Shown: in pieces, positions 30,770 to 45,150 of the stretch
Layout: every line of letters starts with the position of its first letter
Numbering within the stretch: the first letter of the stretch is position 1
Source: Fidelibacterota bacterium 408169
GTDB taxonomy: Bacteria > Fidelibacterota > Marinisomatia > Marinisomatales > TCS55
Reading direction: 5' to 3'
NCBI GenBank assembly: GCA_002256485.1
Contig: NNSG01000005.1
Location: 1-64,000, forward strand
DNA: 64,000 nt
The notes under the pieces: model-generated
Told to the model about the DNA's origin: nothing
The model's database searches: none
The model's input: the letters and a program-made list of their open reading frames with translations, nothing else
Position numbers and translations under genes: made by a program

Positions 30770-30784
30770 TCAATTGAGGAAAAG

Positions 30785-31771
30785 ATGAAATTTGTAACAT
30801 ATTTAGATAGGGGTAATGACTCACAACGATTTGGCTTTGTCACGGATGGATTCGTAGTTGATGTACTCCGTTCAGCCATTTTTATGAACGAAGAAAAGAA
30901 AGATGGACAATTTTTAGAAATACCATCTTCTCTCCATACATGCCTGGAAGATTGGGAACCAAACCTGATAAAGTTGCAAAAACTTCAAGACGAATTAGAA
31001 AATGAGCCTATTTCTGATCTCATGACAAATAACCAGCATGTTGCTCAACCTGAAACAAACGTACAATTGCTTCCGCCTATAACAAATCCCAGTACATTCC
31101 GTGATTTCTATGCATTTGAACAACACGTAAAAGCAGCACGAAAATTACGTGGATTAGATATGCATCCCGATTGGTTCAGGCTACCCATATTCTATTTCTC
31201 CAACCCCAATGCCCTGTATGGACATGGAGACGAGATCCCCTATCCTGAAAATACGGAAGAACTGGACTTTGAACTGGAATTTGCCGTGATCATCGCCAAT
31301 GGCGGCCGGGATGTAAAAGCAGAAGATGCCGACAGATTGATCGCCGGTTATACCGTCTGCAATGACTGGTCATCCCGGGATCTCCAGCGGGAAGAAATGC
31401 CCTTAAGTCTTGGACCGGCCAAAGGAAAAGATTTTGCCACAAGCTTTGGACCTTACATGGTTACACCTGATGAACTAGCAGATGCCTGGGATGATGATGG
31501 AAAACTGCAGCTTCGCATGACGTGCCATGTTAATGATAAATTGATCTCTGATGGCAACACCAATGACCTCTATCATTCATTTCCAACAATGATCGAGCGA
31601 GCCAGTATGAATGCCAACTTAGTGGCGGGAGATTATTTGGGCTCCGGCACAGTCGGCACAGGCTGCATCCTTGAGCTGCGGCCGGAAAAGACCGGTGGTT
31701 GGATAAAAAAAGGTGATGTGGTACGCATGGAAGTGGAACGATTGGGTGTTTTAGAAAATCAGGTGGTGTAA
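30785..31771 (+). CDS. Fumarylacetoacetate hydrolase family protein
   Basis: A 328-residue FAH-family hydrolase. Metal-binding and active-site stretches are ELDFELEFAVIIANGG, AGYTVCNDWSSRDLQ, GPAKGKDFATSFGPYMV and SGTVGTGC. In this operon it should split fumarylacetoacetate to fumarate and acetoacetate. No maleylacetoacetate isomerase is seen nearby. Base composition changes inside the gene: the first 400 bases are about 35-40% GC, while 31,200-31,760 is about 50-60%, and the next gene returns to about 40%. Its stop overlaps the dioxygenase start by one base. Confidence 0.88.
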   Translation: MKFVTYLDRGNDSQRFGFVTDGFVVDVLRSAIFMNEEKKDGQFLEIPSSLHTCLEDWEPNLIKLQKLQDELENEPISDLMTNNQHVAQPETNVQLLPPITNPSTFRDFYAFEQHVKAARKLRGLDMHPDWFRLPIFYFSNPNALYGHGDEIPYPENTEELDFELEFAVIIANGGRDVKAEDADRLIAGYTVCNDWSSRDLQREEMPLSLGPAKGKDFATSFGPYMVTPDELADAWDDDGKLQLRMTCHVNDKLISDGNTNDLYHSFPTMIERASMNANLVAGDYLGSGTVGTGCILELRPEKTGGWIKKGDVVRMEVERLGVLENQVV

Positions 31772-32919
31772 TGCCTTTTTATCAAAAACGAGGAGATATA
31801 CCAGAAAAGCGTCATATCCAATTTCGTGATGACGATGGAAATTTATATTGGGAAGAATTGATTAGTCGCGAAGGCTTTAGCTCTATTTATTCCAATGTGT
31901 ATCATAAAAATCCGCCTACAGTTGTGAATAAAGTCGGTAATTTTAATCCTCTGAAACTTGAAGCTTGGACCGATACTCATCGCCATCATCATTTGACAAC
32001 TCACAAACTTGATTCATCCGGCGATGCCATTACAGCAAGGATACCCTTGTTTTTTAATAGTGAATGTGTTTTATCCAAGGCGCATGTGGATTCATCCATG
32101 GATAATTTTTACCGAAACGGACATTATGATGAAGTGATTTTTGTACACAATGGTTCAGCAGTTATAAAATCGAATTTTGGAGATTTAACTGTTTCATCCG
32201 GTGATCAAGTGGTCATTCCTAGAGGCGTCATCTGGAAAATGGATATTTTGGAAAATTTGAAATTATTTATTGTCGAATCATCCGGACCAGTAGAAACACC
32301 CAACCGCTATCGAAATAACCATGGACAATTACTGGAGCATTCACCTTTTAGCGAAAGAGATATTCGTACTCCCAACTTTATAAAACCTCAAACGGATGGT
32401 CCAGTTACAGTAAATGTGCGGTTAAACGGCGGGTATCAATCATATGAGTACACAACTCACCCTTGTGACATTGTGGGTTGGGACGGTTATTATTTTCCAT
32501 GGGTGTTTAATATTAAAAACTTTATGCCTATTACCGGCAAGGTTCATCAACCACCGCCAGTACACCAGGTTTTTCAGACATCCGGACTGGTTATTTGTAA
32601 TTTTGTTCCTCGTTTATTTGATTATCATCCCGAAGCTATTCCGGCACCCTACGCCCACAGCAATGTGGATTCGGATGAAATCTTATATTATGTGGAAGGG
32701 AATTTCATGAGTCGAAAAGGTATGGAAGAAGGATCTATTACATTCCATCCCAGTGGATTGCCCCATGGTCCCCAACCGGGAAAAATAGAGGAATCTATTG
32801 GCGCGAAAGAAACATCTGAATACGCTGTAATGGTTGATACATTCAAACCATTGAAAATCACTTCAGCAGCAAAAGCTGTGGATGACGATAACTACCCTGC
32901 TTCATGGCTTGAAAAATGA
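31771..32919 (+). CDS. hmgA: Homogentisate 1,2-dioxygenase
   Basis: A 382-residue cupin-type dioxygenase that opens the homogentisate ring to maleylacetoacetate. The iron-binding pattern appears as H in PYAHSN, E in DSDEILYYVEGN and H in SGLPHGPQPG; TDTHRHHHLTTH lies near the N-terminus. The length is slightly below the 430 or so of proteobacterial enzymes. It starts within the FAH stop and ends overlapping the flavin reductase start (ATGA). Confidence 0.9.
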   Translation: MPFYQKRGDIPEKRHIQFRDDDGNLYWEELISREGFSSIYSNVYHKNPPTVVNKVGNFNPLKLEAWTDTHRHHHLTTHKLDSSGDAITARIPLFFNSECVLSKAHVDSSMDNFYRNGHYDEVIFVHNGSAVIKSNFGDLTVSSGDQVVIPRGVIWKMDILENLKLFIVESSGPVETPNRYRNNHGQLLEHSPFSERDIRTPNFIKPQTDGPVTVNVRLNGGYQSYEYTTHPCDIVGWDGYYFPWVFNIKNFMPITGKVHQPPPVHQVFQTSGLVICNFVPRLFDYHPEAIPAPYAHSNVDSDEILYYVEGNFMSRKGMEEGSITFHPSGLPHGPQPGKIEESIGAKETSEYAVMVDTFKPLKITSAAKAVDDDNYPASWLEK

Positions 32920-33536
32920 TATTTGATCCCAAAGAACATTCATTAGCTGAAACACATAAACTCATGATTGGGTCCATTCTACCGCGTCCCATTGCATTTG
33001 TATCTACATTATCAAAAGATGGAATTGAAAACCTGGCACCCTTTTCCTATTTTAATGGAATTTGTTCCGATCCGCCTTCCATCATGTTTTGTCCAGCTCG
33101 TCGTGGTTATGACGGCAAAACAAAGGATACCCTGAATAACATTCGTGATACTGAAGAATTTGTCGTCAATATTGTTTCTGAAGATCTTGCAGAACAAATG
33201 GTTGCCACAGCTACAGATTTTGAACCGGACATAAACGAATTTGACGTTTCAGGTTTAACGCCTGATCCGTGTCAAATAATTGCTCCTCCCAGAGTAAAAG
33301 AAGCCAAGATCAGTTTTGAATGCAAATTGAATCAAATCATTCCTGTAGGCAATGAAGGTCCCGGTGGCGGATTTGTCGTTATAGGAACTGTTGTTCTGTT
33401 TCATGTTGATGAGGATGTATATAACAACGGCCATATTCTTATTGAAAAACTACGCCCCATCGGCCGGATGGCCGGAAATAAATATATTCGCCCAACAGAT
33501 CAATTCGAAATTATTCGAAAAATCAAACCTGAATAA
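32916..33536 (+). CDS. Flavin reductase-like (FMN-binding split barrel) protein
   Basis: A 206-residue protein with the family opening IGSILPRPIAFVSTLSKDG, NLAPFSYFNGICSDPPSIMF and NIRDTEEFVVNIVSEDLA. Members bind FMN and often supply reduced flavin to monooxygenases. It is translationally coupled to hmgA. No flavin-dependent monooxygenase is in the operon, so its partner is unclear; a role in phenylacetate/tyrosine catabolism is inferred. Confidence 0.85.
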   Translation: MIFDPKEHSLAETHKLMIGSILPRPIAFVSTLSKDGIENLAPFSYFNGICSDPPSIMFCPARRGYDGKTKDTLNNIRDTEEFVVNIVSEDLAEQMVATATDFEPDINEFDVSGLTPDPCQIIAPPRVKEAKISFECKLNQIIPVGNEGPGGGFVVIGTVVLFHVDEDVYNNGHILIEKLRPIGRMAGNKYIRPTDQFEIIRKIKPE

Positions 33537-33538
33537 AT

Positions 33539-34456
33539 TTGTCTAAAAAACTTGCAAAACGCATTTACCAAGCGCAATGTTTGGGCAATGTGGAGCCTAT
33601 CGAATACATGACACCTTATCCGAATTTGCACGGATTGGTTGAGGGGCAAAATGTAAAGCACCATGGTAAAATGATCTATGCTGATTTGGGTATGACCAAC
33701 AGTGAATTTTATTCGCTCGTTCAAAAATTAGCAAACTGGCTCGTAAGTACCGGACTTAAGCCAAAAGAACGGGTTTGGATCCATCCACAACAATTTCCAC
33801 ATACTGAATTACTCGTTTTTGGAGTATGGACTGTAGGAGCTTCTGTTGTTCTCGCTGAAAATCCATCGCAAGATATTGATCATATCATTCGTCCAGATCG
33901 CGTAATTGATACAGATCCAATTCCGGATTGCTTTGAAAATCAAGATGACACATTTGATCCAACCTTCAAACCAAACTTAGATAATGAAGCAATGGTTTTT
34001 ATTTCAGGCAAAAAAGGAATTCGACTTTCACATTATAATTTGCTGGTCAATGCCAATGACGTTCAACGGAAATTAGATTTGTATGATGATGGAAAATTTC
34101 ACGTTGAATTAAAACCAAACAGTACAGCTTGGGTTGTATTGCAGGCCATCTTTCCTCTATATACCGGAGCTCCTGTAACAAAAGAAAATCCGGATTTAAC
34201 TATCGGGCATGAAAATGTCGATTATATTGTCAATTTTGATTGGACTGAAATCAGCGCGTCTAATCAACTCTATATTTTGCCGGAAAATACTGCTGTCGTT
34301 TCTGTAGGTACATCAGGCTTACCCATGACAACATTAGAACAAGAAGGAACTCACCTATCTGTGGAAGGACATTCTGTCATGATGGGTTATACAGATGATG
34401 AATTAAATAAAAAAGTGTTTACAGGAGAATCTTTAGCTCTGCAATTGAGTCGATAA
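33539..34456 (+). CDS. Degenerate, truncated AMP-binding (acyl-CoA synthetase-like) protein
   Basis: A 305-residue protein with a recognisable adenylate-forming N-domain: SEFYSLVQKLANWLVSTGLKPKERVWI, FGVWTVGASVVL, and a late VSVGTSGLPM...GHSVMMGYTDD stretch. The usual serine/threonine/glycine ATP loop is replaced by FISGKKGIRLSH, and the protein stops where the D-G-W-x-x-TGD hinge and C-terminal domain should follow. It is therefore probably inactive as a ligase, or a remnant. The start is TTG at 33539, two bases after the flavin reductase. It overlaps the convergent HAD gene by 38 bases. Confidence 0.65.
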   Translation: MSKKLAKRIYQAQCLGNVEPIEYMTPYPNLHGLVEGQNVKHHGKMIYADLGMTNSEFYSLVQKLANWLVSTGLKPKERVWIHPQQFPHTELLVFGVWTVGASVVLAENPSQDIDHIIRPDRVIDTDPIPDCFENQDDTFDPTFKPNLDNEAMVFISGKKGIRLSHYNLLVNANDVQRKLDLYDDGKFHVELKPNSTAWVVLQAIFPLYTGAPVTKENPDLTIGHENVDYIVNFDWTEISASNQLYILPENTAVVSVGTSGLPMTTLEQEGTHLSVEGHSVMMGYTDDELNKKVFTGESLALQLSR

Positions 34457-35201
34457 TTGCATCCGGAATTATATCCGATTTTTCTAACAACTTTTTACGA
34501 TACTTCCCTGTTTTTACCAATATGCTCTTTATTCCCAATGCTTGAGAGCCACCAATATCATTAATCAAATCATCTCCTACCATCACAACATCATTTGATG
34601 AACATCCAAGATCGTCCAGTGCTGCTTGAAAAAATTCTTTGTTAGGTTTACCAAGGGTGATTGCCTGTTTCCCGGTGGCATATTCCAATCCTGAAACTAT
34701 GGCACCAATATCCAGGTCAAGACCATCATTTACTTGAAAATATTTCCCTTTATGCAGTGCCAATAATTTTGCACCGTCCATCATGAGTCGAAATGCCTCA
34801 TTTATATCATCATAGATCCAATCATGACCACGGTCGCCCATAACCACCCATTCTGGTTTATCTTTACCACAATCGAAACGGTGATAATCTTCTTTTAGGT
34901 CATTGCTGATGAGTAAATGGCATTTGGGTGTACCGAGAGAACTTAAATAGATCACTCCTGCCTGGCCGGCGCTGACGATCTCACTTTCTGTCATATCCAA
35001 ACCAAGGTCATTGAGTTTTTGTGTAAGTTGTTTTCGTGTCTTGGTAGTGGTGTTGGTGACAAAGCGAAAGGGAATCTCTTTCTTTCGTAACAGAGATATT
35101 GTATCTGCTGCCCCAGGGATCAATTCCCCGGAAATGTAGAATACACCATCCAGGTCAAAGAGGAATGCTTTGGGTGGCTTCAAGGTGTTGATTCTTTCCA
35201 T
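34419..35201 (-). CDS. HAD-IIA (NagD-like) phosphatase
   Basis: About 260 residues. Motif I is FLFDLDGVFYISG, motif II FVTNTTTK, motif III/IV GKPNKEFF and MVGDDLINDIGGSQALGIKS. The order and the cap between motifs II and III fit HAD-IIA enzymes (NagD/LHPP/HDHD2 type) that dephosphorylate small substrates. The ATG at 35201 is preferred to a TTG two codons earlier. It is the last gene of the long membrane-protein operon and overlaps the convergent gene at its end. Confidence 0.85.
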   Translation of the reverse strand: MERINTLKPPKAFLFDLDGVFYISGELIPGAADTISLLRKKEIPFRFVTNTTTKTRKQLTQKLNDLGLDMTESEIVSAGQAGVIYLSSLGTPKCHLLISNDLKEDYHRFDCGKDKPEWVVMGDRGHDWIYDDINEAFRLMMDGAKLLALHKGKYFQVNDGLDLDIGAIVSGLEYATGKQAITLGKPNKEFFQAALDDLGCSSNDVVMVGDDLINDIGGSQALGIKSILVKTGKYRKKLLEKSDIIPDAIIDSIAELKILL

Positions 35202-35650
35202 CTCCAACTATTTGATTCACTTTCAAACTCATTGTCATCATTCCTCCGCTTCAACTGTTCCCGATTATAAACCCAAATGGCTTCGTGGAGTTTATTATAG
35301 GATTCATAGGCAGCGAAGGCCCCCAGGAAAAGAGATCCAAAATAAACAGAAATAAACGATCCTTCATCAGTATTAACTAATGCAGAACTCGCTATGGGTC
35401 CAATTATTAATACTCCCAACCCTAGCATACGCATTATAAATGATTTTTCATATAGATCGCTTGACTCTTGGTATTGATCCATTTCCTTTCGGATCGATCT
35501 CAAGTGAAACGATTCTCCTCCTTTTACATACTTTTGCCCAAAGAATCCCTGCTGCAAATAGATCGCATCGTAGTAGTATTGTGTTTCAAAGTCTGTGTTT
35601 TGGGCAAATAAAACACTAACAGTTAAAATTGTTAATATATGTTTCTTCAA
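35180..35650 (-). CDS. Hypothetical exported/membrane protein
   Basis: A 156-residue protein that I do not recognise. An N-terminal signal sequence (KKHILTILTVSVLFAQ) is followed by a tyrosine-rich segment and a charged helix. Two hydrophobic helices follow (LGLGVLIIGPIASSAL and FISVYFGSLFLGAFAAY) with an acidic tail. Its start overlaps the upstream stop by four bases and its end overlaps the HAD start, so it is part of the same translationally coupled operon. Confidence 0.7.
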   Translation of the reverse strand: MKKHILTILTVSVLFAQNTDFETQYYYDAIYLQQGFFGQKYVKGGESFHLRSIRKEMDQYQESSDLYEKSFIMRMLGLGVLIIGPIASSALVNTDEGSFISVYFGSLFLGAFAAYESYNKLHEAIWVYNREQLKRRNDDNEFESESNSWRWKESTP

Positions 35651-36183
35651 TTTTTATCTCCTTTAGTTGAAACAAACTGGCTCCACTGCCAGAAATGCAT
35701 TATGGATGCAATTCCTCCACCCGTCACAAACGCACTCCCGATCCATGATGTAACAAGAGGATAAGGCCTGTCAATTATAGGTGTGGAACCAATAGCCCAA
35801 GCATCCAATGGTTTAGCTGCCAGGATCAAGGCAATTGAAACAAAATGAAATGCATTGGCAAAAATATGGTTCATATACTCACCGTTTGATAGGCCGCCGT
35901 ATCTGTTTCGACTTCTCCCTTCTTCTCTGACGTCAAGAACTAGAAATAACATATCAACAGCTACAACGGTAACCCCCAGCCAGAGGATCGGTCCGCTGTG
36001 GTCATGGGCAAAAAGAGTATACATTATGATTGTAAATAATACAGCACGGATGGTATGATAAATGTGTTCCAGGATCGATTCCTTATCCTTTGCCAGTCTA
36101 TATTTGATATCGTGATAATACACTCCGTCTATGATGGCCAGGATTCCAAAAGCGACCATACAGATGGTAGCAGCAATGATCAT
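35647..36183 (-). CDS. Hypothetical multi-pass membrane protein
   Basis: A 178-residue protein with about five hydrophobic segments beginning with IIAATICMVAFGILAII and including AVLFTIIMYTLF, LGVTVVAVDMLFLVL, and FHFVSIALILAAK. I know no named family for it. ATGA overlaps on both sides tie it to the Lgt-like gene and to the exported protein gene. An inner-membrane function related to its neighbours is inferred. Confidence 0.7.
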   Translation of the reverse strand: MIIAATICMVAFGILAIIDGVYYHDIKYRLAKDKESILEHIYHTIRAVLFTIIMYTLFAHDHSGPILWLGVTVVAVDMLFLVLDVREEGRSRNRYGGLSNGEYMNHIFANAFHFVSIALILAAKPLDAWAIGSTPIIDRPYPLVTSWIGSAFVTGGGIASIMHFWQWSQFVSTKGDKN

Positions 36184-36977
36184 GAAACTTTTTCCGGTTT
36201 TAGTTCATTGTTGTAGAACACCCGGACAAAATAAAGTACGACCACCAGAAGCAGCCACTGTACCGGTTTCATGAATCCCGTATCCGGCATGGGCGAATCT
36301 CCCCGGACGAATTCTTCCAGTAAACGGAACCCGCCATAGAGAGCAAGATACAGACGAAACATACTTCCCCTGATCTTAAAACTGTCTCTCTTAATCCAGA
36401 AATATGCAAAAAGACCCAGGTTGAAAATGATCTCATAAATAGGGGTGGGATGAACCGGCAATGTGCTCGTGGCCGTTTCCGGTATTAACCCTAAAGCCAT
36501 TTGCGTAAAATAAGCTACCGATCCTTCCGGATATACTACTGCCCACGGTAAGCTGCACTCTGTACCAAAGCAGCAGCCTCCAAGATAACAGCCAACACGC
36601 CCAATGGCATGAGCAAGTGGGATCGCCACAGCAAATGCATCACCTGTTGAATGGGGATAGCCGATCTTTTTCTTGGTGATCTCTACACCAATGAAGCCCC
36701 CGGCGATACCTCCCAGAACCGTTTTGCCGGCAAAATCCAGCATTCGAACTTGATCTGGAATATCTTCCCAGCCGGCAAAAAAGACGTTGAACAGGTACGA
36801 CCCAAACACGGCACCAATGATGCAGCCGGCCATGACAAACAGCATTTCCTCCAGCTCCCAATCCATCCGGCGAAACTCTCTGTAAAAGACCATACCGCCA
36901 ACGATCCACGCCAGGAGGAAAAAAACGGAATAGGAGTCAATGATGATCGTGTCTGATTGGTACAGGATGGGATGCAT
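36180..36977 (-). CDS. Lgt-like prolipoprotein diacylglyceryl transferase family protein
   Basis: A 265-residue polytopic protein of the Lgt family. The conserved region HAIGRVGCYLGGCCFGTEC followed by PWAVVYP, then VHPTPIYEIIFNL and LYGGFRLLEEFVRGD match Lgt topology. The usual HGG motif is not present: the corresponding segment reads VLGGIAGGFIGVEI. This suggests a paralogue that may transfer a lipid moiety to something other than standard prolipoproteins, or have lost activity. GC content is higher than in flanking regions. It starts three bases after the small membrane protein gene. Confidence 0.8.
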   Translation of the reverse strand: MHPILYQSDTIIIDSYSVFFLLAWIVGGMVFYREFRRMDWELEEMLFVMAGCIIGAVFGSYLFNVFFAGWEDIPDQVRMLDFAGKTVLGGIAGGFIGVEITKKKIGYPHSTGDAFAVAIPLAHAIGRVGCYLGGCCFGTECSLPWAVVYPEGSVAYFTQMALGLIPETATSTLPVHPTPIYEIIFNLGLFAYFWIKRDSFKIRGSMFRLYLALYGGFRLLEEFVRGDSPMPDTGFMKPVQWLLLVVVLYFVRVFYNNELKPEKVS

Positions 36978-36980
36978 TTG

Positions 36981-37145
36981 TCAACCTTTTTTTGATGGCT
37001 GAAAGATGAGGATAATGGTCGCTATGATGCCCAATAATATTCCTAGCCAGAACCAATTATGGCTATTGTATCCTTTCCGTTCGGCAACATACGCCGTAAG
37101 AAAGCCAAAGAAGAGCCCGTAGAGTAAGATCAGTATCCAGTTCAT
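36981..37145 (-). CDS. Small 54-residue membrane protein
   Basis: A short frame easily missed by gene callers. The protein begins MNWILILLYGLFFGFLTAYV, has a central AERKGYNSHNW loop and a second helix FWLGILLGIIATIILIF, and ends QPSKKG. Its ATG overlaps the permease stop (ATGA), and its TGA lies three bases before the Lgt-like start, exactly the spacing of the rest of this operon. The two-helix design resembles small subunits of membrane complexes. Function is unknown. Confidence 0.75.
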   Translation of the reverse strand: MNWILILLYGLFFGFLTAYVAERKGYNSHNWFWLGILLGIIATIILIFQPSKKG

Positions 37146-37999
37146 GGTATCATCCAGGAGACAAGAAATCCTGCCATGGTGAAGAGGACAAAAATAGTAA
37201 TCAAATAAAGAACCAGCAATTCCTTCTTGAACACCCGCGTCAAAAGCAAAACACTCGGGAGGCCCACTCCGGAGGCGGCCATCATGAACGAAAAAACCAG
37301 GCCCGTGTTCAAGCCTTTATCCAGAAACAGTTGACCGATGGGGATCAGCATGACAATATCAGCATAGATCGCTCCGCCAACTCCCACGGCTCCAGGAATG
37401 GCCGCCATCTGATATTGATCCAACACTGACAATATCGATTCACTTGGGGCCCAGCTCTGGAGCCATGTAGCCAAAAAAGCAGCAATAACCACCACTGGTG
37501 CGAGGGATCGTAAAAAACCTGCGTACTGCCGGTTTACAGCCTTCAGTGTGAAAGTATCAACATCATTAATAAAAAAGATCTCGATCAAATATTTTCGCAA
37601 TGATCCTCTGTCCAGTACGATGCCTCCAACTACGGCAATGGTTAAACAGATAGCTATATATACCAGAGTTATCTGTCCTCCAAACAGGGCATAAAACAGG
37701 ATAAGAGCTGGAGGATTCAGCGTAGGAGAGGCGATGAGAAAACTCACTGCATAGCCTAAACGAATATTACTGTCGATCATGCCGGCGAATATTGGAACGG
37801 TTGTGCAAGAACAGAATGGAGTCACGGCCCCGGCGGATGCGCCCAGAACATAGCCCAAAGGACCTGTGTTGCTGCCGAACCAGCGTTTAAGGCGCAGCTC
37901 ATTCAAAAACCCTTTCAGCCAGACTGCTATGAGAAATACAAACCAGTATAGGATAAAGAGTCCAATGACGAACGTGAAGAAATAGGTCCAGTCAAACAA
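37142..37999 (-). CDS. YraQ-type permease (DUF318 / ArsP-like)
   Basis: A 285-residue polytopic protein with the family core GASAGAVTPFCSCTTVPIFAG, FLIASPTLNPPALILF and GVGGAIYADIVMLIPIGQ. The family includes ArsP organoarsenical efflux permeases and many uncharacterised members with the FCSC cysteine pair. The substrate is unknown. It begins four bases after the upstream glycine-zipper gene. Higher GC than the adjacent AT-rich small genes hints at a different history. Confidence 0.82.
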   Translation of the reverse strand: MFDWTYFFTFVIGLFILYWFVFLIAVWLKGFLNELRLKRWFGSNTGPLGYVLGASAGAVTPFCSCTTVPIFAGMIDSNIRLGYAVSFLIASPTLNPPALILFYALFGGQITLVYIAICLTIAVVGGIVLDRGSLRKYLIEIFFINDVDTFTLKAVNRQYAGFLRSLAPVVVIAAFLATWLQSWAPSESILSVLDQYQMAAIPGAVGVGGAIYADIVMLIPIGQLFLDKGLNTGLVFSFMMAASGVGLPSVLLLTRVFKKELLVLYLITIFVLFTMAGFLVSWMIP

Positions 38000-38003
38000 T
38001 GAA

Positions 38004-38606
38004 TTATTCTATAACGATCTGCCAGTCATAGGGACCGATGATAAATTCTTCCGCTTTTTGATCTGCAACCATACCTCTAACGAATCCAATTACACCGCCG
38101 GCGACCGTGCCACTGCCTCCATAAAAAATACTGCCGGCTACTGCTATACACCCGGGACTATCAAGCCCTCTCCCACTACTTTGTGATGCTAATGATGACA
38201 ATAACAAAATTCCAGTACACCCTAAACCGAGCAAAGCTCCTCTTTTCATACCCTGTCGAACATATTTTCCCACACTTTTGTATTCTCCGTGGTAGATCGT
38301 TCCGATATCAATCAGTGGAATGCTCATCTTCACCCCATCTTTTGACTGGCGGATCAAGAGTCCGTCTGCCGAAACGCCAACCAGCTCGCCGCCGGTATAG
38401 TTTTTTGAATCCCAGACATCCACGGCAACGATCCAGTCTCCATTGGGAATTGTCACCCGCTCTTCAACCATTTCTAAAACAAGATCACTGGTCTCCTGCT
38501 GGGCGTGGATACTTTCCTTATTGAAATGGATCGCATTGGTTTCCACCAAACCTATAGCCACTGCTGTTACAAGTAAGCTGATCAGTAACGATCTTTGGTT
38601 ATTCAT
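38004..38606 (-). CDS. Glycine-zipper envelope protein, AIGLVE family member 1
   Basis: About 200 residues, starting at MNNQRSLLISLLVTAVAIGL, a signal/anchor sequence shared with two neighbours. After a beta-rich middle (GGELVGVSADGLLIRQ) comes a glycine-rich hydrophobic pair (MKRGALLGLGCTGILLL and AGGVIGFVRGMVA), and the protein ends DWQIVIE. ATG at 38606 is chosen: its ATGAATAA overlaps the previous stop by eight bases and GGAG lies upstream. Not a family I can name; likely periplasmic or membrane-inserted. Confidence 0.7.
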   Translation of the reverse strand: MNNQRSLLISLLVTAVAIGLVETNAIHFNKESIHAQQETSDLVLEMVEERVTIPNGDWIVAVDVWDSKNYTGGELVGVSADGLLIRQSKDGVKMSIPLIDIGTIYHGEYKSVGKYVRQGMKRGALLGLGCTGILLLSSLASQSSGRGLDSPGCIAVAGSIFYGGSGTVAGGVIGFVRGMVADQKAEEFIIGPYDWQIVIE

Positions 38607-39135
38607 TTGCAATTCTCCAGCCATCGGTCCCCAGTTCAAAGGTCTCCTTTTTTATTTTTTGCGTATACCCATACCCCGCCCCTACAATACCTAAAGCGAG
38701 AGCATCGATACCAGTACAAATGGGGACAGTAAAGATCATATAATGATAAGATTCATCTGGCATCGTTATTGCCACTCCGGCCATCGCACCAACCAATCCA
38801 CCATACAACATTCCTTTTAAACCATATTGCTTACTTTTATTTCCTGCCGGAATATCTATGGCGGAAATATCTGTAAAAAGGACTGTGGATTTTTTCATGA
38901 TCAGAATCTCTTGTTCCATGTCCACCGATTCGTATTTCATTACCTGGTCATCGATGATTACCTTGTTGCCGGGTTCGATCACAAATACCTCATCCCCTTT
39001 TTTTAATAAGAGAGGGATCTTTTCCGGTTCGGCAAATAAATAGTGATCCTGTAATTGAACAACATCCGATTCCACCAAACCAATGGCAACAGCTGTGATT
39101 AGAATACTGATCATTAAAGTCTTTTGATTATTCAT
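38599..39135 (-). CDS. Glycine-zipper envelope protein, AIGLVE family member 2
   Basis: A 178-residue paralogue of its neighbours. The N-terminus MNNQKTLMISILITAVAIGL is nearly the same as in member 1; a short beta-rich segment (GNKVIIDDQVMKYESV) precedes a glycine-zipper hairpin (YGLKGMLYGGLVGAMAGVA) and the C-terminus GTDGWRIANE. Eight-base ATGAATAA overlaps occur at both ends, so translation is coupled. The terminal NE is a by-product of that overlap. Confidence 0.7.
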   Translation of the reverse strand: MNNQKTLMISILITAVAIGLVESDVVQLQDHYLFAEPEKIPLLLKKGDEVFVIEPGNKVIIDDQVMKYESVDMEQEILIMKKSTVLFTDISAIDIPAGNKSKQYGLKGMLYGGLVGAMAGVAITMPDESYHYMIFTVPICTGIDALALGIVGAGYGYTQKIKKETFELGTDGWRIANE

Positions 39136-39694
39136 TTGATATCACCCAGGCATTAGATCCTTGTAATGGAATGGAAAACCATTCACCTTTTCCATATTTT
39201 TTTGCTGTTGGCCAAGAATTAATAAAAGCATTACCCATAATTAATGTCATTATTCCCATAAAAATTGGACTTTCTGATGGATCAATATCTCCATTGTCAT
39301 CCGTTTCTCTATTGCTTGACCAAGTTAGTCTATAATAAATACCAGCGGCTGCACCGGCTAACATCCCTTGTGGTAAAGCGTGCACGAAAAGATTGGGATA
39401 CCAAAGAAGCAATGCTCTATAAAATGTATTATCTAACCGTAGTTGAATTCTATCAATTTCAGTTAAGTTATACTCTAGTTTTTTGCGTTTGGTATAAAAT
39501 ACCTTATAGCTGATATCCTTTACCGTAATGGTATTAGATACAGGATCATAATCTTGAAAAAACAATTTTCTCTTATCGTCATTAATTTTGATCTGCTGGC
39601 CTTTTTGAATTTCTACACGATTATTTCCACTAGAAATTTCAAGTATATTTCCGTACAACAGATTCAATACTATAACGGGAATAATAATTCTCAT
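39128..39694 (-). CDS. Glycine-zipper envelope protein, AIGLVE-cluster member 3
   Basis: About 188 residues from the ATG at 39694 (MRIIIPVIVLNLLYG), which overlaps the upstream stop as ATGA; a longer frame exists but is less likely. It lacks the AIGLVE N-terminus but shares the rest of the plan: beta-rich segment, LPQGMLAGAAAGIYYRLTW zipper, and the C-terminus GSNAWVISNE. Thirty-three bases of its zipper-coding DNA (39332-39364) are identical to part of the gene at 42058-42567. Confidence 0.68.
   Translation of the reverse strand: MRIIIPVIVLNLLYGNILEISSGNNRVEIQKGQQIKINDDKRKLFFQDYDPVSNTITVKDISYKVFYTKRKKLEYNLTEIDRIQLRLDNTFYRALLLWYPNLFVHALPQGMLAGAAAGIYYRLTWSSNRETDDNGDIDPSESPIFMGIMTLIMGNAFINSWPTAKKYGKGEWFSIPLQGSNAWVISNE
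39332..39364 (-). repeat. 33-base exact repeat, copy A (partner 42172-42204)
   Basis: Begins ATAATAAATACCAGCGGCTG on the + strand and ends CTAACAT, identical to 42172-42204 about 2.8 kb away. Both copies encode the glycine-zipper peptide LAGAAAGIYY in different paralogues. DNA-level identity beyond protein constraint suggests recent gene conversion. Confidence 0.9.
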
Positions 39695-40479
39695 TCCGGA
39701 CTCCAAACGGACCATTGAGATAAATGAATTTCTTTCCACGAATCGGATAATACAGCTGGGTCTGATACAAATGCATTAAGTGCAGTTGTGGTGGCCCACA
39801 TTCCCATTAAACAGCCTGCTAACATTAATGAGCCATCACCATTATGTTGACCATCAGCAGCAGCACCTAATAATGATCCCGTAAGTCCACCAACACATCC
39901 ATAACCAATTATTTTCTTGTTTAGTTTAGGTATTTGTTGTTCTATCAATTCCCATTCACCTGATTTATTCTTATTTAAAGTCTTTTTAGAATGAGTAGGA
40001 TGTAAGTAATCCTTCGCTAAAAGAATTTTCAATATATTTATTTTAGATAATTTATACTCTAATTGCAGGTTACTACCCGCAGTAACAATAATAGTATTCT
40101 CATTTGGGTTATGTGATTTGAATTGAAATACATTATCACCCTCATTAATCATTAATTTTGTATCTGGTCTTACGGTAATGACCTCACCATCGATATTGTT
40201 TTTTAATAGCATAAAATCATTTAATAATAAGGTCTCTTGTTCACTCTCTAATTCTGAAGATGTATTTTTTAAGGTATCTTGCCCTCTATCTAATTCTGAA
40301 GGGGTATTTTTGGGATGTAAGTTGACTTGATTTAAAATTGCTCTAAGTAAAATTTCAGAAATTTCATCTGTTTGGGCATGGACACCATTGTTTTGGAATT
40401 CTATAACATCCGTTTCCACCAAGCCAATGGCAGCGGCAGTAAGAAATAAACAGAATAGTAATGATCTACTTGTTCTCAT
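39691..40479 (-). CDS. Glycine-zipper envelope protein, AIGLVE family member 4
   Basis: A 262-residue paralogue starting MRTSRSLLFCLFLTAAAIGL. After the anchor comes a spacer with an internal near-repeat (NTPSELDRGQDTL / NTSSELESEQETL), then a beta-rich region, the zipper IIGYGCVGGLTGSLLGAA, and the C-terminus WSVWSPE. It overlaps the radical SAM gene end by 14 bases. AT-rich (about 35%) relative to the radical SAM gene. Function unknown. Confidence 0.7.
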   Translation of the reverse strand: MRTSRSLLFCLFLTAAAIGLVETDVIEFQNNGVHAQTDEISEILLRAILNQVNLHPKNTPSELDRGQDTLKNTSSELESEQETLLLNDFMLLKNNIDGEVITVRPDTKLMINEGDNVFQFKSHNPNENTIIVTAGSNLQLEYKLSKINILKILLAKDYLHPTHSKKTLNKNKSGEWELIEQQIPKLNKKIIGYGCVGGLTGSLLGAAADGQHNGDGSLMLAGCLMGMWATTTALNAFVSDPAVLSDSWKEIHLSQWSVWSPE

Positions 40480-42040
40480 GTATTACCTCCGAATTCTGTT
40501 TTACATGACCATTGCTCTTTCCATTCTGGCCATTTGTAGGTATAAAACCATTTGCTTTTGCCATAGGCATTGGAATGGGCATGGGGATATTGCCATTCTG
40601 CCAGTGGCGGACCTCGTGTGTCTCCCGATAGAGCACATTATAGGTATCAAAGGGAATGGTCTTTCCATCGGGCATGGCAAAGCCGATACAGCATTTTTTC
40701 ACCACTTTCATGTCCCAGTTATATTTATCCTGGAACTGGATCAGGATAATCCGAAATGCATTTTCATCGGCGATCTTCTGCCGTCCTTCCAGACTGAAGA
40801 AATTCTTTTTCACGGGGATACCACAGACGCAGGAAAAATCATAGAGCGTCTTCATTGAATTGAAGCTGGATGAGGCGGACCACAAGCCTTCAATGGCCTT
40901 TTTATAAATGGGCCTAGGATCGGTGAAAATAGTATTGGTGAACTGATCCATGTAGGGCTCAAGGTCGATGAAACGGGGAATAGGCTTTACTTTCTTGCCT
41001 TTTACATAAGCGTAGGTCATAGCGATCTCACTGGGGTGACTGCAAGGCAATGGTAGGAAGTCTGTTTTGCGGAACATGCCCGAGGTCTGCTCTTCCAACC
41101 GATCCATGATCTCCGTATTAGTTACGCGGTCCATGGGGTTGAAATCGTGGTCATAGCGCCCGGCGAAGAATGCCGGCTGAAAATTCACACCGCGGATGCC
41201 TTTGGTCTTGATACCGAATTCAACGATCTGTCCGATCTGGTCCTCATTCACACCCCGCTGGATCACCGCTGCCAGGTTAACCGGTAATCCATGTTTCAAC
41301 ATATTCTCGATGGCCTTCATTTTCATATCGGCCATCTTGGCTCCCCGAATCTTCTGGTTCACTTCATCGGTAAAACCGTCAAACTGGAGGTAGATCTCCA
41401 GTTTATGATCGCTCACATCTACAAGGCGTTTTACTAGGTCCTCATCTTGGGCAAGCTTGATGCCGTTGGTGTTGATCATAACCACTTCGATGGGCCGGGA
41501 CACCGCTTCCTTTACCGCACCAATAATATTGGGATGGACGGTTGGCTCGCCTCCGGAGAACTGCACCACAGCGCCTACGCCTTCCTGCTCAATGAACCCG
41601 TCCAGAGAGGCCTTGATCTGGTCCATGGTCAGATGAGCAGAGCCATCAGAATCTGCGAAACAAGTGGGGCAGGCCAGGTTGCAGGCATCGGTAAGGTCAA
41701 TAAGCCCAAGGCACATGTGCTGTTCGTGGTCCGGGCAAACACCGCAATCATAAGGACAACCACGATCCACTTCTGTGGGGAATTTTAGAGGAAGGTCTCC
41801 GGGGCGGTTAAATTTTTGAGCATGGAAGTACCAATTGGCATCGGAATGAAGAAGGCATGATTCAAAACCGTGGTCGGGGCACCATTTACGGAGGATAATC
41901 TTATCGTCGTCTGTTTTCAGTATTTTGGCATCCACCACGCAAAGACACTTGGAGCAGAGGCTCCGTGTCATCTCCAGGAAAACGTCTTTCCGGCGTTTCC
42001 GTGGATTCTCAAGTATATCTGGTTGTTCCGATGGGAACAT
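40466..42040 (-). CDS. Radical SAM protein of the tetraether-synthase (Tes)/MJ0619 type
   Basis: A 524-residue radical SAM enzyme. The [4Fe-4S]-SAM motif is C120-NLA-C124-PT-C127, followed by FSGGEPTVHP and MINTNGIKLA. The N-terminus carries extra metal sites: C29/C32/C34 in CSKCLC, C54 in WCPDHG, and C95/C99/C102/C110 in RGCPYDCGVCPDHEQHMC. The RGVNFQPAFFAGR stretch and C-terminal FSCVCGIP and KKCCIGFAMP fit the family that includes archaeal tetraether synthase and the methanogen pterin methylase. Tes joins lipid tails by C-C bonds; what this bacterial homologue modifies is unknown. The last 45 residues are Pro/Asn/Gly-rich and probably flexible. GC content (over 50%) is well above that of neighbours. 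Confidence 0.85.
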   Translation of the reverse strand: MFPSEQPDILENPRKRRKDVFLEMTRSLCSKCLCVVDAKILKTDDDKIILRKWCPDHGFESCLLHSDANWYFHAQKFNRPGDLPLKFPTEVDRGCPYDCGVCPDHEQHMCLGLIDLTDACNLACPTCFADSDGSAHLTMDQIKASLDGFIEQEGVGAVVQFSGGEPTVHPNIIGAVKEAVSRPIEVVMINTNGIKLAQDEDLVKRLVDVSDHKLEIYLQFDGFTDEVNQKIRGAKMADMKMKAIENMLKHGLPVNLAAVIQRGVNEDQIGQIVEFGIKTKGIRGVNFQPAFFAGRYDHDFNPMDRVTNTEIMDRLEEQTSGMFRKTDFLPLPCSHPSEIAMTYAYVKGKKVKPIPRFIDLEPYMDQFTNTIFTDPRPIYKKAIEGLWSASSSFNSMKTLYDFSCVCGIPVKKNFFSLEGRQKIADENAFRIILIQFQDKYNWDMKVVKKCCIGFAMPDGKTIPFDTYNVLYRETHEVRHWQNGNIPMPIPMPMAKANGFIPTNGQNGKSNGHVKQNSEVIHENK

Positions 42041-42057: not shown

Positions 42058-42567
42058 TTAATAGATCAAATTAGTCTGGATCCATTCCTTTTTTTCATCC
42101 AATGTCCACATGGACATATCTGCCAGGACCTCTGGCTGTCCTTTTAAAAAACCACCACCAAGCTTTCTTCCATAATAAATACCAGCGGCTGCACCGGCTA
42201 ACATAAACAATCCAGGTAGTGTCCCTTCATCATTATTAAATGAACCAGGAAACATCATTACACCAGTCAAGCAACCGCCAATTGCACCGCCATACCCACA
42301 AAAGAAGCCACCTAAAATTTGGCCCAGTACACTTGGCCCAGGAGGCATCAAGATCATCTCTATTTCATCCAGTGCAACCTGAACGTCCCAATTGCCATTA
42401 TTTAACATGAGTTGATCATTCTCCAAACCAACTACTTGGTAATCTTTCATTTCACTGGAAGTGGTATAGATCCAATATGATTTCCCTTCTGGTTCTGATT
42501 GAGCATAAAGACTACTCAAAGATAAGATTATTATTATAACTGATATCAACCTATTGTTTTTGAACAT
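42058..42567 (-). CDS. Exported glycine-zipper protein, tandem copy 1
   Basis: A 169-residue protein with a signal peptide (ISVIIIILSLSSLYAQ), a conserved YWIYTTSSEMKDYQVVG start, a NNGNWDVQVALDEIE beta segment, two glycine-zipper helices (GGFFCGYGGAIGGCLTGV and LAGAAAGIYYGRKLGG), and an ADMSMWTLDEKKEWIQ tail. It is a tandem duplicate of the gene 17 bases upstream, with even the last DNA bases nearly the same. Probably an envelope protein of unknown function. Confidence 0.72.
   Translation of the reverse strand: MFKNNRLISVIIIILSLSSLYAQSEPEGKSYWIYTTSSEMKDYQVVGLENDQLMLNNGNWDVQVALDEIEMILMPPGPSVLGQILGGFFCGYGGAIGGCLTGVMMFPGSFNNDEGTLPGLFMLAGAAAGIYYGRKLGGGFLKGQPEVLADMSMWTLDEKKEWIQTNLIY
42172..42204 (-). 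repeat. 33-base exact repeat, copy B (partner 39332-39364)
   Basis: Identical to 39332-39364 and encoding the same zipper peptide in the 169-residue protein. The flanking bases differ at once on both sides. Confidence 0.9.
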
Positions 42568-42584: not shown

Positions 42585-43100
42585 TTAATAGATCAAATTA
42601 TTCTGGATCCATTCCTTTTTTTCATCCACGGTCCACAAGGCCATATCCACCAACACTTCCGAGTCTCCCTTTAAATAATTGCCTCCCATTTTGCGTCCAT
42701 AATAACTACCGCCTAAAGCGCCGGCAATAATAAATGCGCGTAATCCATCAATTCCTTCTTCCCGTACTCCCAGCGATTTAGGAAAAACAATTACTCCGGC
42801 TAAAAAGCCTACGCACATTCCGCCGCATGCACCCAAATTTCTACCTAAAAATTGACCTCGGCCACTCGGTCTCGGAGGCAGAGAAAAATGTTCTATTTCT
42901 GCAATGGGAATTTTCACATCCCAGCTGCCATTATTCAAAAGTAGTTGATCATTCTCCATACCTGTGATCTGGTAATCTTTCATTTCGCTGGAGGGGGTAT
43001 AGATCCAATAGTGTTTACCTTCCTGCTGTGATTGAGCATAGATACTGTTCAACGATATGATGATAACGATGGTCGTTATCAGTCTGTTGTGTTTAACCAC
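42585..43100 (-). CDS. Exported glycine-zipper protein, tandem copy 2
   Basis: A 171-residue paralogue of the next gene with the same plan: signal peptide ending SIYAQ, YWIYTPSSEMKDYQITG, NNGSWDVKIPIAEIE, zipper helices (GACGGMCVGFLAGVIVF and IAGALGGSYYGRKMGG), and VDMALWTVDEKKEWIQNNLI. The paralogues differ mainly in the central zipper, as expected after an older duplication. It lies 35 bases after the barrel-protein gene and is probably cotranscribed with it. Confidence 0.72.
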   Translation of the reverse strand: MVKHNRLITTIVIIISLNSIYAQSQQEGKHYWIYTPSSEMKDYQITGMENDQLLLNNGSWDVKIPIAEIEHFSLPPRPSGRGQFLGRNLGACGGMCVGFLAGVIVFPKSLGVREEGIDGLRAFIIAGALGGSYYGRKMGGNYLKGDSEVLVDMALWTVDEKKEWIQNNLIY

Positions 43101-43135: not shown

Positions 43136-44269
43136 TTAAAATTTATAATAAAATGCAACAAAGGGTCGCTGAAAATGGATACCGATCCTGAATTTTTCAT
43201 TATAGGCGTAGATGAAGCCAAAATCGAAATCAATATCAGAAATGTGTTCTTCTTCAGCAAATTCCAGCATGGATGTCCAATAAGGATCGTAAAATACCTC
43301 AAAAAGCAGTTTCAAACTGCGTCGGGCATCGGCCGTAACGGCATAATAGGCCCGGGGCATGAGGTCATAACCGGGGTATGATGTTATATTTGCACCAATG
43401 GTGTGGTTGATCCGACCTTGCCCGGATTGTTTCAAATTTGATACGGTAAATGCAGCAAAGGCTTCCCACCAGATCTCGCCGCCACTAAAGGGATTTTCAT
43501 CATAGTAACCATCTTCATTCAATTTTGACCCAACGCGCACCCAATCATTTCTATTTTCATGCCACGTAGTATCACCAACATAATAATCAATATTATATTC
43601 GTGAACTTCTTTCAATTCATATTTGTTCGGTGTGCCCCGCATATGAAAATGTCCACCCACTGAAAAAGCTTTCTCTGATTTCAAATCACCCGTTTTAAAG
43701 AGCATGAATTTGGGTCGAAGATTTAGGTCCCCATAAAAATAACCTCCCCATTTGGATGTGATCTGAATACGGTCAGTCAGACCATAGCCCCAGGAAAGCC
43801 CGCTTAAGTACAGGACATTTTCTTCCAATACATATCCGGTAGGATCAAAGTAAATATCAATGAGTCGCTCGTCGCCATAGTACCAGCGGCCTCTTTCTGT
43901 TTGACCCGGTCGTGAAAATTGTCCCCTAGATTTCCCCATACTTTTAAAATCGATACGCTCAATTTTATCATGACTGACAAATACTTCGCCAAATTGAGCT
44001 TTGACCGTTACACCCTCGTCGCTTTCCGATATAATGATTCCCCGGAGCTTATCTCCGGATTTGAGAATAATGAATGCTTCTTCCGGTTTAACTTCGTCTT
44101 TCTTGATCATTATTTCACCAAAAGATGTCTGTACGATATATGTAGAATCTGTTTCGGATGTAATGGCACCCGTTACTGTATCTCCCGATTTGAGATGAAA
44201 CGTTTTTTCCTGGGCAAATAGGCTACCCATTAATGCTGTGATTAAAATCGTTATTTTAATGACCTTCAT
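43136..44269 (-). CDS. Outer-membrane barrel protein with two N-terminal G-box repeat modules
   Basis: A 377-residue exported protein. The signal peptide MKVIKITILITALMGSLFAQ is followed by two tandem 38-residue modules with the pattern LKSGD..xG.I.SE.D...V...FGE....D.V/I, the first LKSGDTVTGAITSETDS and the second LKSGDKLRGIIISESDE. The remaining 250 residues alternate in beta-barrel fashion and end in FVAFYYKF, an aromatic C-terminus usual for outer-membrane insertion. A similar module occurs once in the protein at 55180-55950. Function unknown. Confidence 0.72.
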   Translation of the reverse strand: MKVIKITILITALMGSLFAQEKTFHLKSGDTVTGAITSETDSTYIVQTSFGEIMIKKDEVKPEEAFIILKSGDKLRGIIISESDEGVTVKAQFGEVFVSHDKIERIDFKSMGKSRGQFSRPGQTERGRWYYGDERLIDIYFDPTGYVLEENVLYLSGLSWGYGLTDRIQITSKWGGYFYGDLNLRPKFMLFKTGDLKSEKAFSVGGHFHMRGTPNKYELKEVHEYNIDYYVGDTTWHENRNDWVRVGSKLNEDGYYDENPFSGGEIWWEAFAAFTVSNLKQSGQGRINHTIGANITSYPGYDLMPRAYYAVTADARRSLKLLFEVFYDPYWTSMLEFAEEEHISDIDFDFGFIYAYNEKFRIGIHFQRPFVAFYYKF

Positions 44270-44439: not shown

Positions 44440-45150
44440 ATGAAAACAGTACAAGAAATAATTTCTGATGTTATGGCGAGTCAAGGATTACGTCACAAGT
44501 ACCAAGTGGCGGAGTATTTTGGAGTAACGCCTCAAGCAGTCAGTACGTGGCTCACTTCCGGAATTATACCGTCCAAACACATATTGAAATATCAATCTGA
44601 ATCTACACCGTCATTTTCCATGCCCGCCCCAGTGCCTCTTTCAGAAGAAGGTGAAGTAAACCGTCAGAAGGAAGTTATTGATTATTTTATCGCTGAAAAC
44701 GTAACACTAAAAAATGAAATCGCCCAACTGAAACAAAACATAACACGCATTCAATCATCTAAGGGGAAAGATGACATTATAGAAAAAGTGAATGCAGAAT
44801 CACTGTTTATTTCCGGGCGTATTTCCGATGGCGCTATCACCGATGTTCGTGGAGATTGGCAAAAGCATATGGGCTATGGGGAGAAAGACTTGGTTGGACA
44901 TAAATACGATCGGGAAGACTTGATCCACCCTGATGAATTCGAGCGAACAAAGCGCCACCAACGAACACTAAAAACGTCAGAAGGAATAAAGGAAACACGC
45001 TTCAGTACCATCCAGCGCTGGAAGCACGGAAAGACCGGTCAATACGTTATGTTAAGTATGGTCTGGTATGCGAATATTGAAGAAGATCGAGTGGACATTG
45101 TAGCAAAACCTATTGATTCATTTATGGGATCTGATTATTTAAAAGAATAA
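44440..45150 (+). CDS. HTH (CI-type) and PAS-like transcription regulator
   Basis: A 236-residue protein in three parts. Residues 1-50 hold a phage-repressor-type helix-turn-helix (YQVAEYFGVTPQAVSTWLTS then GIIPSKHIL). Residues 75-110 are a charged probable coiled coil (EVIDYFIAENVTLKNEIAQL). Residues 120-230 are a PAS-like sensor domain with SDGAITDVRGDWQKHMGYG and LIHPDEFERTKRHQR. It is divergent from the barrel/zipper operon, which it might regulate. A signal cannot be deduced. Confidence 0.75.
   Translation: MKTVQEIISDVMASQGLRHKYQVAEYFGVTPQAVSTWLTSGIIPSKHILKYQSESTPSFSMPAPVPLSEEGEVNRQKEVIDYFIAENVTLKNEIAQLKQNITRIQSSKGKDDIIEKVNAESLFISGRISDGAITDVRGDWQKHMGYGEKDLVGHKYDREDLIHPDEFERTKRHQRTLKTSEGIKETRFSTIQRWKHGKTGQYVMLSMVWYANIEEDRVDIVAKPIDSFMGSDYLKE

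Follow-up and report, generated by a model that had tools for sequence, protein, structure and literature searches.

Organization of the operon

We analyzed a stretch of 64,000 nucleotides from Fidelibacterota bacterium 408169 (GenBank assembly GCA_002256485.1, contig NNSG01000005.1, positions 1 to 64,000), referred to below as the window. Its minus strand carries, at 34419-42040, a tightly packed run of genes in which a radical S-adenosylmethionine (SAM) enzyme of the Tes/TrsS superfamily (rSAM) is accompanied by Lgt2, a homologue of the diacylglyceryl transferase Lgt. The two genes form a pair that recurs across bacterial phyla, and we tentatively propose that they are the core of a lipid-modification module.

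Every gene named in an initial annotation of this DNA is present, on one strand and with the spacings that it had reported; its list, described as ten genes, itself adds up to eleven. Start codons were picked by overlap and ribosome-binding context before gaps were computed. The resulting gaps, from rSAM downstream, are -14 bases (rSAM/z1), -4 (z1/z2), -8 (z2/z3), -8 (z3/z4), +4 (z4/ArsP), -4 (ArsP/54-aa), +3 (54-aa/Lgt2), -4 (Lgt2/178-aa), -4 (178-aa/156-aa) and -28 (156-aa/HAD), where sizes in amino acids (aa) designate genes by the length of their products. The operon had been described as headed by the radical SAM gene. In fact, the same-strand run extends upstream by three further genes, up to 44269, comprising two glycine-zipper genes (u1, u2) and a 377-aa gene (u3), with gaps of 17, 17 and 35 bases. 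Listed from the upstream end, the genes are:

43136-44269, minus strand: u3, exported protein, 377 aa, two N-terminal beta repeats; precedes rSAM in relatives
42585-43100, minus strand: u2, 171 aa, tandem duplicate of u1 (DNA repeat with u1)
42058-42567, minus strand: u1, glycine-zipper protein with signal peptide, 169 aa; homologues within the module in loci L029 and L209
40466-42040, minus strand: rSAM, Tes/TrsS superfamily, 524 aa (PF04055, PF23545)
39691-40479, minus strand: z1, paralogue of z3 and z4 with an insert, 262 aa; N-terminal 36 residues in common
39128-39694, minus strand: z2, diverged zipper protein; start moved from the GTG at 39739
38599-39135, minus strand: z3, paralogue of z4 by sequence comparison, 178 aa
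38004-38606, minus strand: z4, exported protein, 200 aa, beta domain and glycine-zipper helical hairpin (from conservation and a low-confidence model)
37142-37999, minus strand: ArsP_1/YraQ-type permease, 285 aa (PF03773)
36981-37145, minus strand: two-helix membrane protein, 54 aa; kept between ArsP and Lgt2 in relatives
36180-36977, minus strand: Lgt2, Lgt-like diacylglyceryl transferase paralogue, 265 aa (Pfam LGT; motif GRVGCYLGGCCFG)
35647-36183, minus strand: membrane protein of no known family, 178 aa; conserved after Lgt2
35180-35650, minus strand: exported protein of no known family, 156 aa; conserved after the 178-aa gene
34419-35207, minus strand: HAD-IIA hydrolase overlapping the operon end (TIGR01458, 223.4 bits against a cut-off of 175.95)

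The listed TTG start of z4 at 38639 probably overextends that gene. Promoter-like sites occurred at the frequency seen in shuffled sequence and terminator-like sites slightly above it; neither was used as evidence.

Conservation of the module within the phylum

The phylum was represented by 245 genomes, and radical SAM matches were counted at E <= 1e-30. Ten genomes contained a match to rSAM. Two of these were set aside, G205 having a true Tes by the curated cut-off and G131 a diverged partial gene, which leaves close rSAM orthologues in 8/245 genomes. Lgt2 orthologues were likewise found in 8/245, and 7 genomes contain both (Fisher's exact p = 6.6e-12, genome relatedness not corrected for). 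The genomes with only one of the two genes are explained by contig ends: the 3.9-kb contig of G005 (Lgt2 without rSAM) reads z3-z4-ArsP-54aa-Lgt2-178aa and is broken inside z3, and the rSAM contig of G032 (rSAM without Lgt2; locus L028) stops just past z4.

The order u3 - zipper(s) - rSAM - zipper(s) - ArsP - 54aa - Lgt2 - 178aa - 156aa is kept, with insertions and with differing numbers of zipper genes. In all relatives holding that stretch, z4 is retained and the ArsP-type permease gene adjoins the 54-aa gene, whose product is 64-91% conserved between ArsP and Lgt2. The 178-aa protein (59-65%) directly follows Lgt2 in L027, L029, L030, L208 and L209, and the 156-aa protein (41-46%) follows the 178-aa gene in L027, L029, L030 and L209. 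L028, L029 and L030 each have u3 (63-66%) ahead of rSAM; L032 has two copies there, with 38-39%. Two more enzymes are encoded in the operon of L027, one a fatty acid hydroxylase (PF04116, 6e-29), the other a PAP2 phosphatase (PF14378, 7e-9). These are further lipid-type enzymes and speak in favor of a lipid-modification function.

The initial annotation had reasoned that scattered genes in relatives would indicate a chance assembly. Run on the relatives, this check found the genes co-conserved in order, with rSAM and Lgt2 together in 7 genomes. The co-conserved set that had been envisaged therefore stands for rSAM, Lgt2 and the gene order, and has to be trimmed by the HAD phosphatase: in none of the relatives did its gene have a counterpart next to the module, and it thus looks like a local passenger.

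As a separate observation, L032 (137-3405, in G131) has at its contig end, behind the two u3-like genes, a radical SAM gene that matches the Chryseobacterium type at 64%, versus 43% for that of the window.

The Lgt-like/radical SAM pair in other phyla

A scan of named genomes returned mostly archaea, and the breadth of the pair in bacteria was therefore drawn from class samples (295 Bacteroidia and 274 Gammaproteobacteria genomes) and plasmid records. Methylococcus and Chryseobacterium, recovered by the scan itself, each have an rSAM relative (36-38%) with an adjoining Lgt-like gene; a second Methylococcus has the same arrangement. Among the Bacteroidia, 18/295 genomes contain an rSAM relative, with an Lgt-like gene upstream on the same strand in all 18. 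The Gammaproteobacteria sample yielded an rSAM relative in 9/274 genomes, alongside an Lgt-like gene in 7 of the 9. On plasmid records of Persicobacter, Nonomuraea and two mycobacteria, both genes lie within 2 kb of each other. The Lgt-like/rSAM pair thus spans at least four bacterial phyla. The conserved core is wider than the operon: it is a two-gene pair, co-inherited across phyla. A second Lgt was encoded elsewhere in the genome in 4/4 genomes checked.

An all-against-all comparison of neighbors found no other gene family common to several phyla. The ArsP-type permease is missing from the Bacteroidia, Gammaproteobacteria and actinobacterial pairs and hence cannot define the core, and no recurrent small-protein partner was found among the neighbors of the Bacteroidia and Gammaproteobacteria pairs. 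Of the two gammaproteobacterial genomes outside these 7, one (L148/L156) has no Lgt-like gene within about 18 kb of the rSAM relative. The stretches around 73 archaeal-type Tes genes, some of them short, contained no Lgt-like gene.

The other of these two gammaproteobacterial genomes, G780, encodes two diverged rSAM copies in a different cluster without Lgt (L160, 888-13642), one of these Tes-like proteins having a duplicated N-terminal Zn-ribbon. Named by eye, this cluster also holds three short-chain dehydrogenases/reductases, a class-III aminotransferase, a sterol-desaturase-like hydroxylase, an HpnH-like radical SAM protein and a phosphopantetheinyl transferase-like gene.

Identity of the radical SAM enzyme

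To place rSAM among characterized families, we consider curated models, structure, motifs and phylogeny in turn. Its top-scoring model is NCBIfam TrsS (NF045646), a radical SAM (seleno)protein, with 321.8 bits over nearly the whole protein, far under the cut-off of 490. The Tes model (NF045702) gave 316.9 bits, also below its cut-off (450). The Chryseobacterium, Methylococcus and actinobacterial relatives likewise score under both cut-offs. As a control, L033 of G205 (170-1648), from the same phylum, reached 560.7 bits on the Tes model; judged by sequence, this phylum may include a bacterium with a genuine tetraether-type synthase. Membership of rSAM in TrsS was ruled out by the cut-off. The operon also differs from TrsS systems in having an Lgt-like partner and no methyltransferase.

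The solved structure closest in sequence is Tes from Methanocaldococcus (GDGT-MAS, MJ0619; 30% identity). The predicted structure of rSAM, in which part of the C-terminal region has low confidence, aligned with Tes over its full length (TM 0.75 to 7tom/7tol; 0.71/0.75 over 512-514 columns). With other radical SAM structures, the alignment covered no more than about half of rSAM (TMq at most 0.40). Identity to archaeal Tes proteins is 32-36% (about 245-275 bits), a level at which the published similarity criterion would probably class rSAM as a Tes homologue. Tes, the tetraether lipid synthase, makes a C-C bond between lipid chain ends and has four domains with three [4Fe-4S] clusters and a rubredoxin-like iron. 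The motifs of the first three cofactors are present in rSAM: the N-terminal rubredoxin-like CxxC..CxxH motif, the N-terminal auxiliary CxxxCxxC..H motif and the radical SAM motif CxxxCxxC.

In contrast, the C-terminal region departs from Tes. Met439 and Tyr459 of Tes, reported to be completely conserved in 1000 archaeal homologues (PMC9433317), correspond to I434 and F454 in rSAM. The Tes-type cysteines of HxHCG and PFC are missing; where Tes has HxHCG, RC and PFC-type cysteines, rSAM has P[LV]PC, CxC, KKCC and PFD. Its C-terminal cysteines (C333, C404, C406, C450, C451) may provide an alternative set of ligands for a C-terminal cluster. The pattern P[LV]PC / CxC or CC / KK[CS]C / PF[DE] is common to the Marinimicrobia enzymes and to most of the Lgt-linked enzymes of Bacteroidia and Gammaproteobacteria. 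The C-terminal ligands were left out in building a tree, in which a branch with 100/100 support sets the Tes group apart. The Marinimicrobia, Bacteroidia/Gammaproteobacteria (81/89) and actinobacterial groups are each coherent, but the tree does not fix the order in which they branch.

On cut-off, residues and tree, orthology with Tes was rejected. On these sequence criteria, rSAM represents a distinct subfamily with a Tes fold and is not a Tes. The label "tetraether-synthase-type", given initially, thus describes the fold and is not supported as a function. The Lgt-like neighbor is a further difference from Tes.

Among TrsS-like relatives, L122 (7302-12342, on a Mycolicibacterium plasmid) has its radical SAM gene beside genes for a methyltransferase, CcdA and a disulfide oxidoreductase, with a second radical SAM gene in the same stretch.

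The Lgt-like protein

Lgt2 scored 119.3 bits against Pfam LGT (PF01790; cut-off 24.9) and is paralogous to L021 (G000:C1:92870-93643), the only other Lgt that the genome encodes. Unlike the Lgt family in general, this second copy is tied to a radical SAM gene. The residues highlighted in E. coli Lgt are the HGGL histidine (H103), Arg143, N146 of GRxGNFINGE and Arg239 (PMC4728403). Lgt2 retains equivalents of both arginines (R127 in GRVGC, R225 in EEFVRGD); other signature residues are altered, with TVLGGI replacing HGGL and GRVGCYLGGCC replacing GRxGNFINGE. We considered the lost histidine as proof that Lgt2 is no transferase and dropped the argument: L021 lacks both the HGGL histidine and the GNFINGE asparagine as well, and the loss is therefore uninformative on the function of Lgt2. 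Given this shared loss, this family may use a variant Lgt. In the Lgt tree, the canonical Lgts form a well-supported group that excludes the module Lgts, and the latter make up no single clear clade.

Exported small proteins and the permease

The proteins z1-z4, u1 and u2 follow a common plan of signal sequence, beta region, glycine-zipper helical pair and C-terminal strand with a conserved Trp. The model of z4 (pLDDT 61, pTM 0.47, low confidence) shows a transmembrane helix, eight strands, two long helices and a C-terminal hairpin. An attempt to identify its fold from this model failed, the best PDB match being no better than E 0.25; several of the weak matches were SH3-like. The N-termini of z1, z3 and z4 resemble signal peptides with an apparent A/Q-type cleavage site. 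One N-terminal sequence is common to these three proteins; nothing else in the genome has it, and u1, u2 and z2 lack it as well. Over the N-terminal 36 residues, z1 is 39-56% identical to z3 and z4, compared to 23-26% elsewhere. Part of this likeness may stem from recent duplication or gene conversion, since a 91-nucleotide direct repeat (73%; 38534-39153) spans the start regions of z3 and z4 together with the ribosome-binding site. A DNA repeat of 72-75% also relates u1 and u2. By inspection, the N-termini of z1-z4, u1 and u2 contain no lipobox cysteine, and the initially suggested lipid anchor is unsupported for the small proteins. Farther upstream, u3 is probably an outer-membrane barrel.

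The permease matched PF03773 with 135.6 bits (gathering score 32.3). Its match to SaoE (NF040736) was weak, at 75 bits against a cut-off of 325.

A possible lipid-modification module and its alternatives

The reading that we favor, with some hesitation, is that the operon encodes a lipid-modification module, the core of which is a membrane Lgt-like transferase homologue together with a radical SAM enzyme that has the Tes fold but belongs to a subfamily of its own. The initial annotation had arrived at membrane-lipid modification, and the combination of lipid-type enzymes in a co-conserved operon agrees with it. In Tes, the lipids lie in a hydrophobic pocket, and a C-S intermediate arises between substrate and cluster (PMC9433317). 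Lgt binds phosphatidylglycerol at the outer face of the membrane and transfers its diacylglyceryl group (PMC4728403). By analogy with Tes, rSAM would abstract hydrogen from an unactivated acyl-chain carbon of a membrane glycerolipid (PMC9433317), and the carbon radical could be held or captured by the C-terminal iron-sulfur cluster, giving rise to a new C-C or C-S bond. Lgt2, by analogy with Lgt, would bind the diacylglyceryl part of the substrate or product lipid, presumably phosphatidylglycerol-like (PMC4728403), and transfer it to an acceptor that is probably other than the normal lipobox cysteine. The Marinimicrobia additions, namely the permease, the 54-aa protein and the fast-evolving exported zipper proteins, may serve to position the product in the envelope, to bind it or to accept it there. 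It is conceivable, with less confidence than we attach to the module itself, that the pair encodes an undescribed class of lipid or lipid-protein conjugate in which radical acyl modification is coupled to diacylglyceryl transfer, in organisms including Methylococcus and Chryseobacterium and on mycobacterial plasmids.

Several observations weigh against the module. Likeness to the Tes fold is no proof of a lipid substrate. For an ArsP-type permease, a part in lipid work is not evident. L148 and L152/L153 lack an Lgt neighbor, the actinobacterial enzymes differ in retaining PFC, and the trees, with poorly supported deep forks between the groups, do not support a single ancestral pair.

Could the operon zipper proteins be the acceptors? 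In an alternative form of protein lipidation, Lgt2 would attach a diacylglyceryl group, possibly radical-modified, to these proteins, guided by their common N-terminal sequence. This sequence is unique in the genome and better conserved than the rest of z1, z3 and z4, and small or DUF3558 genes lie beside the actinobacterial pairs. However, z1, z3 and z4 have no cysteine at the lipobox position, u1, u2 and z2 lack the N-terminal sequence, the repeat over z3 and z4 permits plain duplication or gene conversion, and the Bacteroidia and Gammaproteobacteria pairs have no recurring small-protein partner; we consider this explanation unlikely. A bacterial Tes, joining the acyl chains of two lipids into membrane-spanning lipids of the branched glycerol dialkyl glycerol tetraether (brGDGT) or diabolic-acid kind with an Lgt-like helper, would fit the fold and the similarity to archaeal Tes, and bacterial Tes homologues have been proposed, without proof, as brGDGT makers (PMC8941075; PMC11868695). 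We regard it as rather unlikely here: rSAM falls under the Tes cut-off while G205 of the same phylum has a clear Tes (560.7/450), I434 and F454 replace the residues reported as invariant, the HxHCG and PFC cysteines are missing, and a fully supported branch separates Tes. Nor does the window's genome contain a protein with DUF2229, a Ger/PlsA-type domain. Mss and Ger are bacterial enzymes for membrane-spanning and ether lipids (Sahonero-Canavesi et al. 2022, cited in PMC11868695); Mss acts, as the module would, on the fatty acyl chains of bacterial lipids.

A TrsS-related system for a metal, metalloid or other small molecule would have rSAM modify the molecule, the permease move it and the Lgt-like protein perform a lipid carrier step. 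The nearly full-length TrsS match (321.8 bits) is in keeping with it, as are the weak SaoE match of the permease (75/325 bits) and the TrsS-like relative L122 (41%), which lies without Lgt among redox and methyltransferase genes. Nevertheless, rSAM is under the TrsS cut-off, the operon lacks a methyltransferase, and the permease is absent from the pairs of the Bacteroidia, Gammaproteobacteria and Actinobacteria, making this explanation improbable. A chance gathering of unrelated genes into a single long transcript would account for the variable HAD gene and zipper numbers among relatives, but is very hard to reconcile with the maintained order and co-occurrence and with the presence of the pair in several phyla.

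Novelty and implications

No description of the Lgt-like/radical SAM pair was found in the open-access literature, subscription papers and preprints lying outside the search, and the initial statement that no system with this gene set had been described stands for the searchable literature. The folds are already known; the subfamily and the pairing appear to be new. brGDGTs serve as climate proxies, and bacterial Tes homologues in metagenomes are counted as possible evidence of membrane-spanning lipids (PMC8941075, PMC11868695). Similarity cut-offs would probably count the Lgt-linked group among these homologues. Because this group lacks residues reported as invariant in Tes and its partner gene is another one, it is best kept separate from Tes until tested. 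The pair offers a concrete test case for new radical lipid chemistry in culturable bacteria (Methylococcus capsulatus, Chryseobacterium).

Neighboring genes

One further gene lies just beyond the upstream end of the operon:

44440-45150, plus strand: HTH/PAS-type protein, divergently oriented (weak PAS_3 and HTH matches)

It is a candidate regulator of the operon; homologues occupy the same neighborhood in L028, L029 and L030. On the other side, at 29681-33536 on the plus strand of the window, lie genes resembling those of tyrosine/homogentisate breakdown, named by eye as 4-hydroxyphenylpyruvate dioxygenase (4-HPPD), fumarylacetoacetase, homogentisate dioxygenase and flavin reductase. By their sequence, these genes suggest an oxygen-using host.

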